The notes under the pieces are model-generated. The model saw nothing but the letters and a program-made list of their open reading frames with translations. It was not told the origin of the DNA and searched no databases. This document shows, piece after piece, positions 29,395 to 40,136 of a DNA stretch of 64,000 nt (positions are counted from its first letter, which is position 1; the number at the start of each line of letters is the position of its first letter). The stretch covers positions 248,001 through 312,000 of the forward strand of contig BPHB01000001.1 of NCBI GenBank assembly GCA_026003335.1. Reading direction: 5' to 3'. The stretch comes from Chitinophagales bacterium. Lineage in GTDB: Bacteria; Bacteroidota; Bacteroidia; Chitinophagales; CAIOSU01. Position numbers and translations under genes: made by a program.

Positions 29395-29422
29395 AAAATG
29401 CCTTACCGGATAACGGTAAGGC
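29395..29422 (-). terminator. Terminator overlapping the stop codon of the SprB-repeat gene
   Basis: On the minus strand GCCTTACCG, loop TTATC, CGGTAAGGC, then ATTTTTG: a perfect 9-bp stem. The right arm contains the gene's TAA stop, so the last codons (LTVIR) are part of the hairpin. Confidence 0.75.
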
Positions 29423-32400
29423 TGCCTTTCTTGTGTTCCTTCCAGTTGAGGGGTTCAATACCCTGCTCAAAGTCAGCATCCACGTTATAGACGTAAACGC
29501 CCGGATTGACCGGTTTGCCTCTGAAAGTCCCGTCCCATCCTACATTCGGATCACGGGTTTCAAAAATCTTTTCTCCCCAGCGGTCAAAGATGGTGAGTTT
29601 GAAATACGTGTAGCCCCATATGACGACATAGTAGGTGTCATTTATCCCGTCATTATTTGGAGAAAAGGCATTGGGAACATAAATACCCGTTCTTGGACGC
29701 GTCAAGGTATCCACAGCTATGATTACATAACCGGAGTCTATACATCCCTGCGAAGAAGTTACCGTCACCTGATACATTACACTGTTTTCAGGGGTGGCTA
29801 TCGGGTTCGGACAGTTGATGCATGTAAGCCCCTCCACCGGCGACCAACTGTAATTTACCAGTGTTACACCGGGGCTTGTGGTGGTATTGATGTTGACCGA
29901 CTCTCCGCGTAGAATACGCGTAGTATCAGGAGGAGTCACTACCAGGCCGATATCCGGATAAAATCCCAATTGGGTGTACACAATGCTGTCGCAACCTCCT
30001 GTAGCCGTTAATACCTCTCTAAACGAGCCGGGAGAAGCATAGCTATTGTTTCCGATACGGAACGTGTCACCATAACACAAGGTTGTGTCTAAACTAATGA
30101 CAAATGAATCCAGCAGAGCCAGCGTGGTCAATAGCACGCTATCGCAATTCTGATTGTTGGTAAAGGTGTCTGCATATACTCCGGCTTGGGTCTGCACTGC
30201 TCCGCCCACAAAAAAGCTGCTGCCCCGGCATATTTCTACTGTTCGGGAAGCAGTTATCAACGGGGGTTCAGTAAGGTTAACGCTTTCGGTTGCGGTGCAT
30301 CCGTCATTATCCGTAACTGTTACAGAATAACTACCCGCCATAACATTACGCAGGTTTTGTTGAGTGGAATTGTCACTCCACAGGTAATTATAGGGTGCCG
30401 TGCCACCGTTAACAGTGAGATCCGCCCCGGCAAAAGGCTTTCCGAAACAAGGCGAATGAAGAGCAGTAATGTTCAGCTCCATGGGAGCAGGCTCAGTGAT
30501 TACGGCAGTATCCGTTATCTCACAGAAATTGGAATCTGTCACTGTCACAATATAGCTGCCGGCAGCTAAACCGGTAACCAGAGCCGTAACAGGCCCGTGC
30601 TGCCATGCATACGTATATGGCGGAGTGCCTCCATGGGGAATCACTTCTGCTGAACCAGTGGGGTTGCCGCATGCGATATTGGTAATATCCAGCTCCAGAT
30701 AGAAAGAATCGGGTTCATCAATGACGATGGTATCTTCCAGGGCACAATTGTTAAAGTCATAAACACGGATATAGTAAGTGCCTCCGGCAAGTCCACTGCG
30801 GGAGAAGGATGTTTCCAAGGTATCATCATACCAATAAACTCCCAAGGGAGCAACTCCTCCTGAGGGAGTAACTGTAATAGTGCCGGATGTATGACCAAAG
30901 CACAGCAAGTCAAGATGGGTTTCGGTTACCGAGAGAGGTGGAGGTTGGTTGAGCGTGATACTGTCCACGGCAGTACATCCGGAAGCATCCGTTACCGTAA
31001 CCGTATAGGTACCTGCATAAAGAATACCGAGCGTGTCAATCAACGGCAATATCCCAAGAATATCAGTAGTTGAATTTGCGGGATCATTCCATTGATAGGT
31101 ATACGGTGGATTGCCACCTGTTGCAGTTACCTGAACCCATCCATCGTTGTTGCCATAACATCTGATTTCATACCCGTTGTAGTCATAGGCGAAGAGCGAA
31201 AGGCTTATTGGAGGGTATGTAACCAGCGTAACTGCATCTGTGAAAGTACAGTTATTCAAATCGGTAACAGTAACTGAATAGGTCCCTGCAGCTAATCCGC
31301 TAAGGTCCTCGCTAGTGGCACCGCCTGTCCACAGGTAAGTGTAAGGCGGTGTTCCTCCGGAAACTTCCAGGTCAATACTGCCCTGCCCGTTGTTACCGCA
31401 ATACGGATGCACTACATCCAACGTGTGCGACAGTGAATCTCTTTCATTCACCACCGTCTGCATAAAGGGAGTCTGACAGTTATTGGCATCAAAGATTCTT
31501 ATCTGATAGGTGCCAGGGCAAAGATTATTCACCGTAGCGGATGACCCTCCGGGCAAGGGCGCTCCGTTGAGGTCACGCCAGTCATAACTATAAGGTGGTG
31601 TTCCTCCGGACGGCACGGTTGTTACGCTCCCATCACAAAAACCATAGCAGGAAGGTAAAGCAGCCGACACTGACTGGCTCAGAGCCGATGGCTGTGTGAC
31701 TGTAACCGGAGGTAAGGTAACCGCACAACCGGTGTTATCCGTTATTTGAACCGTATAGGTGTCTGCGCACAAGCCGGTAATAATCCGGTTATTTCCTGAA
31801 CTTACCACATTGCTGCTGCCATCCGTCACCGTGAAGGTGTATGGTGCATTGCCTCCGTTGGCAGTGATGGAAATTACACCGGAGCAATCTCCGTTGCACC
31901 GAATGGGAGTAACTGTAGCTATTCCCGTTAAGTTATACCCTTGTACTGTAATGGTGTCTCTTAGCTGACATCCTTGCTGGTCGGTGACGACAAAAACATA
32001 ATCACCCGGGCAAAGGGAGGTCATAGTTAAGGTGTTCAGAAGCGGAGTACCGCTTATATCATACCACTGGGTTGTATAGGAAGGCGTTCCTCCGGATACG
32101 GCAGCTGTAACCTGACCATCACACTGACCATTGCAACTGATGCCTGTGGAGGAAAGATTCACGGAAAGCGGATTAGGAACGGCAATGGTTGTAGTGGCAA
32201 AGCCCACACATCCCAGTGCATTGGTAACCTGCACGGTATATTGTCCCGGACACAGGCCTGTAATGTTTTGATTTGAACCAATCACATTTCCTACGGCATC
32301 TTTCCATTGGAAGCTACAAGGCGGATTGTTACAGGTCACATTAGCCGTAGCCGACCCCGTGCAGGTGCCCGCACATACGACATTGGTGGGCGTAATGGTA

Positions 32401-34094
32401 ACATTGGGGCCACCCACATTGCCCACATTGACTGACAGCCATTTGCTGCAGGCGGGCTCAAGCTGGTCAGTAATCTGCACGACATAGGTCCCCGCGCACA
32501 AACCTGTAGCAGTAGCCCCCGTCTGTGGCGGGGAGGTATTCCAGGAAAATGTAAAGCCACCACCCAGTCCACCGGAAGGTATCACGGTGGCGCTTCCATT
32601 GCAGGAGCCGCAATTGGCCGCTACTACGTTAAATGTGCCGGTAATTTCAGGTGGCTCGGTGATTACAGCCACATCGGTGTACTGGCAGCCGTTGGCATCC
32701 GTAACGGTTACAGTGTAAGTGCCCGGGTAGAGGTTCGTATTGTTATTGGATGTATAACCGTTTGACCACAAAAAGTCGGTATAATAGGGATATACAATAG
32801 ACTGTGGCGTACCCCCGGTAAGCGATAAAATAGCCGAACCCGTATTCCAGCCATGACAGGTTATTTGTTCAATGGTCATGGTACCATTCCAAGCGGGTGG
32901 TTCATTGACTGTTACAGTGGCAGAACCGGTGCAGCCATTGGCATCCACGGTGGTGATGGTATAGGTACCTGCACATAAATTACTTACCGTGGTGGTAGTA
33001 TAACCGCCCGGTGTCCAGTTCAGGCTGTAGGGTGCAGTTCCACCTGTTGGTGATACGGTTACTACCCCGCTGCACTCTCCGGGGCAGAGGGCATGAGTAA
33101 CGTTGGCTGTATTGATGGCCACACAGTAAACTGTAGCAACGGTATCCAGAATATTGGTACACCCACGGGTGTTGGTAAGCTCAAGCTGCACGCTGTTGAT
33201 ATAGGGAGGACAATTCGTGAAAGTAAAAACGGGGTCTTCCACCGTACTTGTGGTGCCGCCTGCAAAGGTGTATTGAAAACTAGTAATGGAGTCATGTGGG
33301 GTAAAGTTGAATTGTGTGGGGTCACCTATGCATACTGCATTCATGGAAAAAGCGCTGAAGCTTTCATAGATATAAGGTTCGGTTTTGCCTAAAGCATTAG
33401 AGTGCTCTTCAGGAGGACAATTCACAAAAACGCGTTTTACAATAGTATCATATCCCGTATTGGGACAACAAAGGGTCTGGGCACTGATTATCAATTTCAC
33501 GTCATAGGCTCCACAGCTGTCAAAAACATGGGTAGGATTGGCTACGCCTGAAGAGGTATGACCATCTCCAAAGTCATAAAAGAAATTCTGATTAATCGTA
33601 CCGGGCATCAGGGACAGGTTGGTAAAGGTTGTAGGCTGCCCCAGGCACACCGTATCGGCCCGAAAGTTGGCTTCAAAAGTGGGAGGAGCTCCTACTGTAA
33701 TGGTCTGCGTTTTGGTACAACGGGCCGTACGGGTATATGCCCCGAAGAGTCCAAATATAGAGCCCTGGTCATCCTGATGACATTTACCTTCAATAACCAG
33801 TGTGGCCGTCCATGTGCCAGGGGGATAGGAATGGCAAGGAAGTGTGCTGTTCGGGCTAAAGGTGATAGGTGGAGAGCCATCTCCCCAGTTTATGGTCAAC
33901 CGGGTTACTTCATCGCAATCACTTATGAATAAGGCATTTCCATATCCTCCACATAGCTGATAGCACCCGCAGAAAGGCGCATAGGTCAATGTGAAACTAG
34001 AACCGGTGCACCCATTTGCAAACGCAAATTGAGATATACTTCCGGCAAGAACACCGGTAAGTATAAGTAAGCATCGGTTGAGCATGGTATGCAT
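29403..34094 (-). CDS. SprB-repeat, PKD-domain surface protein with T9SS type B signal
   Basis: A 1563-residue exported protein. A signal peptide (LILTGVLAGSISQFAFA) is followed by a Cys-rich head, two PKD-like domains (about 140-330, with FYDFGDGHTSSGVANPTHVF), then twelve repeats of about 75-80 residues (328-1255). Each repeat has a pattern like C.G.C.G......GG..PY...W......(L)C.GTY.V.VTD..GC. These match SprB repeats of gliding adhesins. The end (about 1472-1563) is a type B T9SS sorting domain: YVPNAFSPNNDGINDTYYV, FDRWGEKIFET, GWDGTFRGK, PGVYVYNV. Likely a long extracellular adhesin. An ATG nine bases downstream (MLNRCLL) is an equally plausible start. Confidence 0.92.
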   Translation of the reverse strand: MHTMLNRCLLILTGVLAGSISQFAFANGCTGSSFTLTYAPFCGCYQLCGGYGNALFISDCDEVTRLTINWGDGSPPITFSPNSTLPCHSYPPGTWTATLVIEGKCHQDDQGSIFGLFGAYTRTARCTKTQTITVGAPPTFEANFRADTVCLGQPTTFTNLSLMPGTINQNFFYDFGDGHTSSGVANPTHVFDSCGAYDVKLIISAQTLCCPNTGYDTIVKRVFVNCPPEEHSNALGKTEPYIYESFSAFSMNAVCIGDPTQFNFTPHDSITSFQYTFAGGTTSTVEDPVFTFTNCPPYINSVQLELTNTRGCTNILDTVATVYCVAINTANVTHALCPGECSGVVTVSPTGGTAPYSLNWTPGGYTTTTVSNLCAGTYTITTVDANGCTGSATVTVNEPPAWNGTMTIEQITCHGWNTGSAILSLTGGTPQSIVYPYYTDFLWSNGYTSNNNTNLYPGTYTVTVTDANGCQYTDVAVITEPPEITGTFNVVAANCGSCNGSATVIPSGGLGGGFTFSWNTSPPQTGATATGLCAGTYVVQITDQLEPACSKWLSVNVGNVGGPNVTITPTNVVCAGTCTGSATANVTCNNPPCSFQWKDAVGNVIGSNQNITGLCPGQYTVQVTNALGCVGFATTTIAVPNPLSVNLSSTGISCNGQCDGQVTAAVSGGTPSYTTQWYDISGTPLLNTLTMTSLCPGDYVFVVTDQQGCQLRDTITVQGYNLTGIATVTPIRCNGDCSGVISITANGGNAPYTFTVTDGSSNVVSSGNNRIITGLCADTYTVQITDNTGCAVTLPPVTVTQPSALSQSVSAALPSCYGFCDGSVTTVPSGGTPPYSYDWRDLNGAPLPGGSSATVNNLCPGTYQIRIFDANNCQTPFMQTVVNERDSLSHTLDVVHPYCGNNGQGSIDLEVSGGTPPYTYLWTGGATSEDLSGLAAGTYSVTVTDLNNCTFTDAVTLVTYPPISLSLFAYDYNGYEIRCYGNNDGWVQVTATGGNPPYTYQWNDPANSTTDILGILPLIDTLGILYAGTYTVTVTDASGCTAVDSITLNQPPPLSVTETHLDLLCFGHTSGTITVTPSGGVAPLGVYWYDDTLETSFSRSGLAGGTYYIRVYDFNNCALEDTIVIDEPDSFYLELDITNIACGNPTGSAEVIPHGGTPPYTYAWQHGPVTALVTGLAAGSYIVTVTDSNFCEITDTAVITEPAPMELNITALHSPCFGKPFAGADLTVNGGTAPYNYLWSDNSTQQNLRNVMAGSYSVTVTDNDGCTATESVNLTEPPLITASRTVEICRGSSFFVGGAVQTQAGVYADTFTNNQNCDSVLLTTLALLDSFVISLDTTLCYGDTFRIGNNSYASPGSFREVLTATGGCDSIVYTQLGFYPDIGLVVTPPDTTRILRGESVNINTTTSPGVTLVNYSWSPVEGLTCINCPNPIATPENSVMYQVTVTSSQGCIDSGYVIIAVDTLTRPRTGIYVPNAFSPNNDGINDTYYVVIWGYTYFKLTIFDRWGEKIFETRDPNVGWDGTFRGKPVNPGVYVYNVDADFEQGIEPLNWKEHKKGSLTVIR

Positions 34095-37068: not shown

Positions 37069-38511
37069 TTAGGTTGGAATCCGTTGCACATAGTGGCGAT
37101 AGCGGTTCAGTACATCGGTTACATAACGTATCACGCTGCTTCCTCTGCAAAAGCCGGCTGAAACAACCGGGTCATTGTAATAGCGCGGATTAGATTTTAA
37201 AAGCATAAACCGCTCTACGTGGTTTTTCCATGTACACGGATCCGCGTGAAATTTTTCAGCCAGGCGTACAGCATCGCGCACGTGGGTTTCACCGGCATTG
37301 TAGGAAGCCAGAATAAAATAAATTCTCTCAGAGCTGTCTATGTCCGCCCAATGGCTGTCCAGCCATTGCAGATAAGCTACTCCGGCCCGGATATTTTGTT
37401 CCGGATCAGAGAGGTCATACGCTCCAAAACGCAAACCGGTCAGGGGCATAATTTGCATGAGGCCTTCAGCTCCAGCCCAGGAGCAGGAAGACGGGTCAAA
37501 ACCTGATTCCTCATAAATGAGCGCTGCAAGCAATCTCCAGTCCCACCCGATAGTGACGGCATATTTGCGCATAAGCGAATCATAAGGCGAAATCATACCA
37601 CCGGTAACGGAGAAGTAATCGCTTTGAGCCCAACGAGTGATTTGCTTGGGGTTTTTAAAATACTTTTTATACACCAGATTATACTCCATGCTTTTGCGTG
37701 TTTGAACTATCCACTCATTAAGGCTTTCGTAAAGCAAGGGTGCGTTTTTTCTTACTACCCACACCACACCTTGGGGAGCACTAAGGGTTGTAGCCACATC
37801 TATATTCGGATAATACGTGCTTCCCAGCAAAGCAATATTTTCATCCGTGATGGTGTAATCAATTTCTCCTTCGGCTACCATACGTATCAGGTCATCTTCA
37901 GTTATATCCCAACCTACCGGAATAATATCCAGGGTAATATTGTTTTCCTCTATCAGCTTAAATAAGTGATCTGCCTGGGATGAACTCATACGCACATGCA
38001 CCTGTTTGCCGGCAAGATCGGTAAAATCGCGTATGAGCTTTTTTTCTATTTCGTCATCAGGCATCTTCTCCCATCCCAATGGTTTGCGCTGCACCAGCAC
38101 CTGATGTATTTCCATTATCGGCACCGTAAACCGGGCCTTTTTTCTGTCGGTTTTTTTTATGTCCATCCGGTAAGCTGCTATGTCGCCTTTTCCAGTGTTT
38201 AAATAATGATAAATACTATCAGGATCGGAAACTACTCTTACATGCAACTGCACACCCAGATAATTGGCGAACATCTGAAGCAATTCAAAATCATACCCCA
38301 TGGGCTCACCCCGATAAATGAAATAACTCAGCGAATTATAGCCCAACAAGGCTTCGAGGGTACCCCGCTGACGAATTTCTTCCAAGTCAATATACACACG
38401 CGGACGATCTTCTCCGGTGTACCTGGTAGTTTCAGTATGGCCCTGACTACACCGAAAGGCAGGACATAAAAGCCATAATACAAGCAAAACAATAGTGCCG
38501 CTTTGTTTCAT
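37069..38511 (-). CDS. mltF: MltF-like lytic murein transglycosylase
   Basis: A 480-residue exported enzyme. An N-terminal hydrophobic signal (IVLLVLWLLCPAF) lacks a good lipobox (RC). A periplasmic solute-binding-like domain (SBP_bac_3, about 45-285: GYDFELLQMFANYLGVQL, GDIAAYRMDIKKTDRKK) precedes an SLT lysozyme-like domain (about 315-460). That domain has the catalytic Glu in LIYEESGFDPSS, GAEGLMQIMP and ASYNAGETHVRDA. MltF cuts the glycan of peptidoglycan, giving 1,6-anhydro ends; the N-terminal domain regulates it. Divergent from phoH. Confidence 0.92.
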   Translation of the reverse strand: MKQSGTIVLLVLWLLCPAFRCSQGHTETTRYTGEDRPRVYIDLEEIRQRGTLEALLGYNSLSYFIYRGEPMGYDFELLQMFANYLGVQLHVRVVSDPDSIYHYLNTGKGDIAAYRMDIKKTDRKKARFTVPIMEIHQVLVQRKPLGWEKMPDDEIEKKLIRDFTDLAGKQVHVRMSSSQADHLFKLIEENNITLDIIPVGWDITEDDLIRMVAEGEIDYTITDENIALLGSTYYPNIDVATTLSAPQGVVWVVRKNAPLLYESLNEWIVQTRKSMEYNLVYKKYFKNPKQITRWAQSDYFSVTGGMISPYDSLMRKYAVTIGWDWRLLAALIYEESGFDPSSCSWAGAEGLMQIMPLTGLRFGAYDLSDPEQNIRAGVAYLQWLDSHWADIDSSERIYFILASYNAGETHVRDAVRLAEKFHADPCTWKNHVERFMLLKSNPRYYNDPVVSAGFCRGSSVIRYVTDVLNRYRHYVQRIPT

Positions 38512-38598: not shown

Positions 38599-38682
38599 TG
38601 TGCATAAAATTTTTGCACACAACACTTCTGATGTGCATAAGTAGGCCGATTATGAATAGACGGAGGATGTAAATTTTGCACA
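38599..38682. repeat. Cluster of four DnaA-box-like 9-mers
   Basis: In the 269-base gap between the mltF-like gene and phoH: TGTGCATAA at 38599-38607 and 38632-38640 (TTATGCACA on the minus strand) and TTTTGCACA at 38611-38619 and 38674-38682. All fit the relaxed DnaA-box consensus TTWTNCACA. The first two form a near-palindrome of 21 bases. A CCGAAA/TTTCGG hairpin (38687-38703) follows. It could instead be the operator of a palindrome-binding regulator. Confidence 0.5.
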
Positions 38683-38780
38683 AACACCGAAAATACATTT
38701 CGGCATCAGCGGTCCGAAAAAAAATGAATAACCCAACTTCCTCTCACAGAAAAAATTTTGAATGAAAACACTACGAGCGC

Positions 38781-40136
38781 GTGAAAGAAAAAGTATCAGC
38801 TTCCCCCGGTGACAGGAAAATTTTCGTTCTTGACACCTCTGTAATTCTGTATGATCATAATGCTATTAAAAACTTTGAAGAGCACGATATCGTCATTCCG
38901 ATTCAGGTGCTGGAAGAGCTGGATCATTTCAAAAAAGGCAATGACACCCGAAATTTTGAAGCTCGTGAGTTTATCCGCCTGATTGATGACATCTCTAAAA
39001 ACAATCTGCTGAATGAATGGATACCTCTTAACGGACCCACAAAAGGCAGATTCAGGATTGCCGTAAATGAGAATGGCATTGAGCCGGAGAAAGATGCAGT
39101 GCGCCTGTTTGGGAACGACAAGAATGACCACAAGATTTTGAATGCCGCTCTGTCATTGCAGAAAAAGTATGCAGATAAAAAAGTCATTCTGGTTACCAAA
39201 GACACCTGCCTGCGCCTGAAAGCTAAAGCTCTGAACATCCGTGCGGAAGACTATGAGACCGGTAAAATACACGATGTAGATAAGCTATACACCGGAAAAA
39301 CCGTGCTGCAACAGGTCAGTGACGAAGCAATCGGTCTATTATATGAAAAAGGAGCCGTCAGCCCCGAACAACTGGGCCTCACAGAGGTAAAAGAAAACGA
39401 GTATTTTATCATTTCGGCCCCGGAAAAGCCCCTGCTGGGATACTATAACGCGCAAAGCAGACTGATAGAGCGCATTCACTGGCAGGAAGTTTACGGGGTC
39501 AGCCCACGAAATGCTGAGCAGGCCTTTGCTATTCACGCATTACTGAATCCCCGGATTAAGCTGGTTACCATTCAGGGGGTAGCCGGCACGGGCAAAACAC
39601 TGCTGGCAATGGCCAGCGCTTTGCAGCAGCGCAGAAATTACCGGCAAATTTTTATTACCTGCCCTGTCATACCACTTAGTAACCGGGATATCGGCTTCTT
39701 GCCCGGTGATATAAAATCAAAGCTTGACCCGTATCTGCAGCCCTACTGGGATACACTGAGTTTCATCAAAGATCTGCACGGCAATGAGGATAAAAACGGC
39801 AAACGGATTGATGAAATGCTGGAGTCGGAAAAAATTGCCATAGCCCCTCTCGCCTATATTCGCGGGCGAAGCTTCTCAAAGGTTTTTTTCATTATTGATG
39901 AAGCCCAAAACCTGACTCCGCACGAAGTAAAAACCATCATATCCCGAGCCGGGGATGATACCAAAATGGTGTTTATGGGAGATATTCACCAGATAGATAC
40001 CCCCTATCTGGACGCAGAGAGCAATGGTCTCTCTTACCTGATTGACCGTATAAAAAATAATCCTTTGTTTGCCCATATCACCCTGGAGAAAGGTGAGCGT
40101 AGTGCTCTGGCCAATCTGGCTAATCTTTATTTATAA
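38781..40136 (+). CDS. PIN-domain PhoH-family ATPase
   Basis: A 451-residue fusion of a PIN nuclease-like domain (about 12-150: IFVLDTSVILYDHNAI, the acidic VLEELDHFKKG, NDKNDHKILNAAL, VTKDTCLRLKA) and a PhoH ATPase (about 220-451). The ATPase has Walker A GVAGTGKTLLAMA and Walker B FFIIDEAQNLTPHEVKTII with MGDIHQID. This PhoH2-like pairing occurs in many bacteria, and PhoH2 proteins are linked to RNA unwinding and cleavage. Starts with GTG; an ATG 19 bases upstream is in another frame and soon stops. Confidence 0.93.
   Translation: MKEKVSASPGDRKIFVLDTSVILYDHNAIKNFEEHDIVIPIQVLEELDHFKKGNDTRNFEAREFIRLIDDISKNNLLNEWIPLNGPTKGRFRIAVNENGIEPEKDAVRLFGNDKNDHKILNAALSLQKKYADKKVILVTKDTCLRLKAKALNIRAEDYETGKIHDVDKLYTGKTVLQQVSDEAIGLLYEKGAVSPEQLGLTEVKENEYFIISAPEKPLLGYYNAQSRLIERIHWQEVYGVSPRNAEQAFAIHALLNPRIKLVTIQGVAGTGKTLLAMASALQQRRNYRQIFITCPVIPLSNRDIGFLPGDIKSKLDPYLQPYWDTLSFIKDLHGNEDKNGKRIDEMLESEKIAIAPLAYIRGRSFSKVFFIIDEAQNLTPHEVKTIISRAGDDTKMVFMGDIHQIDTPYLDAESNGLSYLIDRIKNNPLFAHITLEKGERSALANLANLYL

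Follow-up and report, generated by a model that had tools for sequence, protein, structure and literature searches.

The window analyzed here is a stretch of 64,000 bp (C1:248001-312000) in a 3.9-Mb draft genome of 24 unordered contigs. In its right half, a gap of 269 bp separates two divergent genes, one for an MltF-like lytic transglycosylase and one for a PIN-PhoH protein (phoH2), and at 38599-38682 this gap holds four exact TTWTGCACA 9-mers, 99-182 bp upstream of the phoH2 start and all fitting the DnaA-box form TTWTNCACA. In other bacteria this word is bound by DnaA, the protein that starts replication. The Bacteroidota promoter -7 word is TAnnTTTG, and two words resembling it lie before phoH2. 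The features of the locus are as follows:

37069..38511, minus strand: MltF-like lytic transglycosylase gene (SBP_bac_3 and SLT), divergent neighbor of phoH2
38599..38607, minus strand: box 1, TTATGCACA, left arm of a 21-bp near-palindrome
38611..38619, plus strand: box 2, TTTTGCACA, forming the right arm of that near-palindrome; a 3-bp gap separates it from box 1, and the TTWT ends face each other
38632..38640, minus strand: box 3, TTATGCACA (TGTGCATAA on the phoH2 coding strand)
38670..38678, plus strand: TAAATTTTG, one mismatch to TAnnTTTG, candidate phoH2 promoter
38674..38682, plus strand: box 4, TTTTGCACA, overlapping the promoter-like word at 38670-38678
38694..38701, plus strand: TACATTTC, possible alternative -7-like word
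38781..40136, plus strand: PIN-PhoH gene, starting with GTG, for a phoH2-like RNA helicase that has a PIN domain (PF02562 and PF13638)

The PIN-PhoH protein scored 255.8 bits against NF053827, below the cut-off of 680. The pairing of mltF with phoH was found in none of 42 loci (L020-L061) beyond our own genome and in none of 29 loci from the wider class. Elsewhere in the window, an ORF of 1563 aa (29403-34094) contains many repeats of the type TYTVTVTDANGC, and by eye its C-terminus resembles a gliding-motility/secretion tail.

The sequence-only reading had reported four DnaA-box-like 9-mers, two on each strand, and their positions, strands and sequences proved to be exactly as claimed. Boxes 1 and 2 do form the near-palindrome described there (TGTGCATAAA-A-TTTTTGCACA, 21 bp), with arms that are 90% complementary. 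The boxes alternate in strand (-,+,-,+) with gaps of 3, 12 and 33 bp, and position 5 is G in all four. From one start to the next the distances are 12, 21 and 42 bp, which approximate whole turns of the helix; in a test devised after the spacing had been seen, 1% of randomized layouts were equally well phased. Across the whole genome there are 87 occurrences of TTWTGCACA, and more than two fall within 1 kb only at the phoH2 cluster. From the density of boxes in 1.62 Mb of the genome (215), a Poisson estimate gives ~0.8-1.1e-4 clusters as tight as this one per whole genome. The window overall is not enriched (11 TTWTNCACA versus 7.44 by shuffling), and its unusual feature is the clustering of the boxes, not their number. 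A genome-wide scan for such 9-mer pairs, one of the checks that had been proposed, found inverted pairs with a gap of at most 30 bp at three places and direct pairs at five, the phoH2 cluster being in both lists.

The place of the cluster on the chromosome was assessed by GC skew, by a search for dif and by gene orientation. On C1, sampled GC skew stays positive as far as ~260 kb and is negative over the remainder of the contig beyond ~290 kb, and the cumulative skew of contiguous C1:200-360 kb has a flat maximum at 262-272 kb, ~18 kb from the box cluster. Between listed ORFs at C1:239692-239719 lies a dif-like 28-mer, TTGTCCCATAATTTATATTATGTTAAGT, whose score of 18.7, from a profile built on only three known sites, is the best in the ~1.5 Mb of the genome that was scanned (next, 17.2; best within the box cluster, 6.1). 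Because this site is ~47 kb away and the skew peak ~18 kb away, the cluster is near the terminus. The cumulative skew of contiguous C2:780-1124 kb has its minimum at 1068 kb, and there the intergenic region between nadA and nadD (C2:1068267-1068640) contains a run of many box-like words, which are nearer to TTATCCACA and unlike those of the phoH2 cluster. This region does not adjoin dnaA (C1:1558 kb); on its sequence, it is the probable oriC. The orientation of rpoB and rplB on C2 is that demanded by a G-rich leading strand, that is, by the conventional sign of the skew. A 16S gene, sought as an rRNA orientation marker, was not found in the assembly. Genes near the window point away from the box cluster, as they would at an origin, but this bias weakens within ~250 kb. 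In two relatives (G008:C1 and G002:C10), each sampled in ten stretches, no clear skew switch was seen at PhoH.

Relatives of the PhoH protein were collected by similarity (14 loci; 27 of 60 genomes; 41 of 298 genomes of the order, many of them the same; 162 of 247 genomes of the class, with upstream regions taken from the best 69 of the 162). TTWTNCACA occurs 15 times in 40 non-duplicate regions before phoH2, versus 2.9 times in shuffles of 400 bp and 1.8 in shuffles of 250 bp. For the order set we also ranked every XXXXNXXXX word over the 250 bp that precede phoH2, using 52 regions that fell into 40 clusters; our own locus (L034) was left out, and so were L061 and those PhoH matches in G362 and G369 that are partial, with the start missing or cut. 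The form was picked because of the DnaA box, and every competing word had the same form. TTATNCACA was the most enriched gapped 8-mer (11 of the 40 clusters versus 0.84 expected) and ranked first of the 245 words present in at least four clusters, with p 4.8e-10, uncorrected for how many words were compared. In the noncoding flanks of these loci there are six copies in 25.6 kb (~2.4 in 10 kb), which means that intergenic location alone does not explain the excess. Position 5 of the relatives' boxes is A, C, G or T. One relative that is in culture, Cryomorpha ignava (L022), has TTATTCACA at -145 of phoH2.

It was on this enrichment that the earlier suggestion of DnaA control of the PIN-PhoH gene gained ground, whereas it gained little from a second draw and none from the wider class. 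Of 12 further members of the order, two carried TTWTNCACA, and one of the two is closely related to a row included earlier. In the class regions, from the best 69 of 162 matching genomes, TTWTNCACA was found in 1 of 29 and 7 of 40, and TTATNCACA in 2 of 51 clusters, outside the top ranks, so that the enrichment is absent there. Six genomes of our own family provided seven PhoH loci (one partial), only one of which has TTWTNCACA. No four-box array was found in the order set, the second draw or the class regions, in which the maximum was two boxes.

In a PhoH tree of 74 rows, our protein falls in a clade of eight with support of 98/91, although its exact place is unsure given long branches. TTWTNCACA precedes the gene in seven of these eight rows, six with TTATNCACA and the seventh with TTTTGCACA; two rows represent a single locus, and our own genome accounts for one row. 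Over the whole tree, the presence of TTATNCACA requires 7 changes versus 13.9 in shuffles. Our PhoH (38781-40136) matches that of a genome from another family (G016) at 68% versus 55-57% for its own family, a pattern hinting at horizontal transfer or hidden paralogy.

Because the word also stands ahead of this gene in distant relatives, the cluster is most likely a switch for phoH2, and the PIN-PhoH gene is likely the regulated one. In orientation, box 3 agrees with the boxes of the relatives L020-L023; it lies 29 bp upstream of the TAnnTTT promoter-like word, as compared with 30 bp for the box of L020 and L035. A fixed spacing between box and TAnnTTT was considered and is not claimed: gaps of 30, 37, 38, 39 and 41 bp occur in the relatives, and others do not fit.

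The genome encodes a single DnaA match, with a full DNA-binding domain (PF08299). The E. coli DnaA box is given as TTATnCACA (extracts of PMC5742627), and because n stands at its fifth position, the variable position 5 of the relatives' boxes counts in favor of DnaA. As described in parts of PMC11317965, the genes under DnaA control in E. coli belong to replication, repair and RNA metabolism, the last an area to which a PIN-PhoH target would also belong; the protein prefers pairs of boxes 2-3 bp apart, with the double box modelled in tandem. The double-box promoters treated in those parts (purH, nrdA and mioC) share with the phoH2 cluster TTWTNCACA boxes upstream of the gene and a pair with a 3-bp gap. 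In contrast to them, the pair in the phoH2 cluster (boxes 1 and 2) is inverted rather than tandem, the boxes number four, and the target is PIN-PhoH in a member of the Bacteroidota. The G at position 5 of every box, set against words nearer TTATCCACA at the skew minimum, appears to count against binding by DnaA.

On balance, we consider it an even chance that DnaA binds the cluster, in the promoter region shared by the divergent mltF and phoH2, and that the cluster serves as a regulatory site for phoH2. Box 3 would correspond to the DnaA box that several related families have ahead of phoH2; our own lineage would have gained three more boxes, nearly aligned on one helical face, and one of these overlaps the candidate phoH2 promoter. 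DnaA, as the presumed binder of these boxes, would tie the transcription of phoH2 to the level of DnaA, the complex formed on them being expected to touch RNA polymerase. As to the sign of control, repression through box 4 would be our guess as the most likely.

The main rival to DnaA control is a single-copy operator of another regulator. An unrelated dimeric protein would have the 21-bp palindrome TGTGCATAAAATTTTTGCACA as its main site and boxes 3 and 4 as in-phase half-sites, and would control only mltF and phoH2. The near-perfect palindrome, the divergent promoters, the helical phasing of the boxes and the G that all four share at position 5 are consistent with such an operator. Set against these, the palindrome is unique in the genome, neither neighboring gene encodes a regulator, and the single TTATNCACA words of the relatives, with any base at position 5, are left unexplained; we regard this explanation as unlikely, if still a serious competitor. 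Its wider form, in which the same palindrome stands upstream of several genes of one regulon, was ruled out, since exact TGTGCAN9TGCACA occurs at one place genome-wide, the phoH2 cluster.

A site for DnaA titration or nucleotide exchange near the terminus, of the datA or DARS kind, would account for the presence, outside the origin, of four boxes within 84 bp, and like E. coli DARS1 and DARS2 the phoH2 cluster is a noncoding group of boxes away from the origin. It differs from them in the order and gaps of its boxes and in its location near the terminus. According to extracts of PMC5742627, box I of the E. coli DARS core is opposite to boxes II and III, whereas the strands here alternate; in DARS2 of K-12, with which the layout was compared, the words taken as the core are separated by 5 and 3 bp, versus 3, 12 and 33 here. 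No DARS1 boxes turned up in the stretch used for that comparison. The reactivation site that had been suggested is thus not borne out, the three boxes at fixed spacing of the E. coli core not being found here. In a datA site, DnaA boxes surround a site for IHF, and DnaA-ATP is hydrolyzed. A terminus-proximal datA works badly in E. coli (parts of PMC4585315), and the same genome has a better candidate at C1:1026405-1026611, so that we judge a titration or exchange site at phoH2 improbable. That other region has seven DnaA-box-like words in ~200 bp, six of them on one strand, including two tandem pairs with 2-bp gaps and two perfect TTATCCACA. It lies at the 3' end of an M1-peptidase-like gene and extends into the end of a convergent ORF, and the starts of its words (with one two-mismatch word added) are mostly in helical phase. 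By its sequence, it resembles a DnaA control site located away from the origin, of the datA or DARS type.

Slightly less probable still is that the cluster has no function and is a chance run or a relic of boxes. The four-box array is indeed not conserved in the genomes searched, none of which is congeneric, but only ~1e-4 such clusters are expected per genome, and this one precedes the one gene at which relatives carry the same word.

A chromosomal replication origin, with which the intergenic clustering of DnaA-like boxes (as in oriC-type arrays), the nearby GC-skew switch and the genes locally pointing away would agree, is rejected as extremely improbable because that switch is a cumulative maximum (C1:262-272 kb), the dif-like site is found at C1:239692, the orientation of rpoB and rplB agrees with the conventional sign, and the skew minimum, which the earlier reading had named as decisive if it lay elsewhere with a better box cluster, falls on another contig (C2:1068 kb), at the box-rich nadA-nadD region, a separate candidate origin.

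Taken together, the sequence comparisons indicate that the cluster is real, is not an origin and most probably serves phoH2 as a regulatory site of the DnaA type. A broader proposal, which we advance as somewhat less probable than DnaA control at this locus, is that in Chitinophagales-like Bacteroidota and some neighbors DnaA directly controls the RNA helicase/nuclease PIN-PhoH and would link RNA turnover to replication status, with the link reinforced here, close to the terminus, by an array of four boxes in helical phase. In the literature that we searched, no paper joined PhoH with the DnaA box, the DnaA regulon with Bacteroidetes, or PhoH with the replication origin and Bacteroidetes. If the proposal is true, phoH2 would be a DnaA target gene in Bacteroidota, the control of which would be testable in a cultured relative, and the site may offer a cue to when the little-understood PIN-PhoH proteins act.
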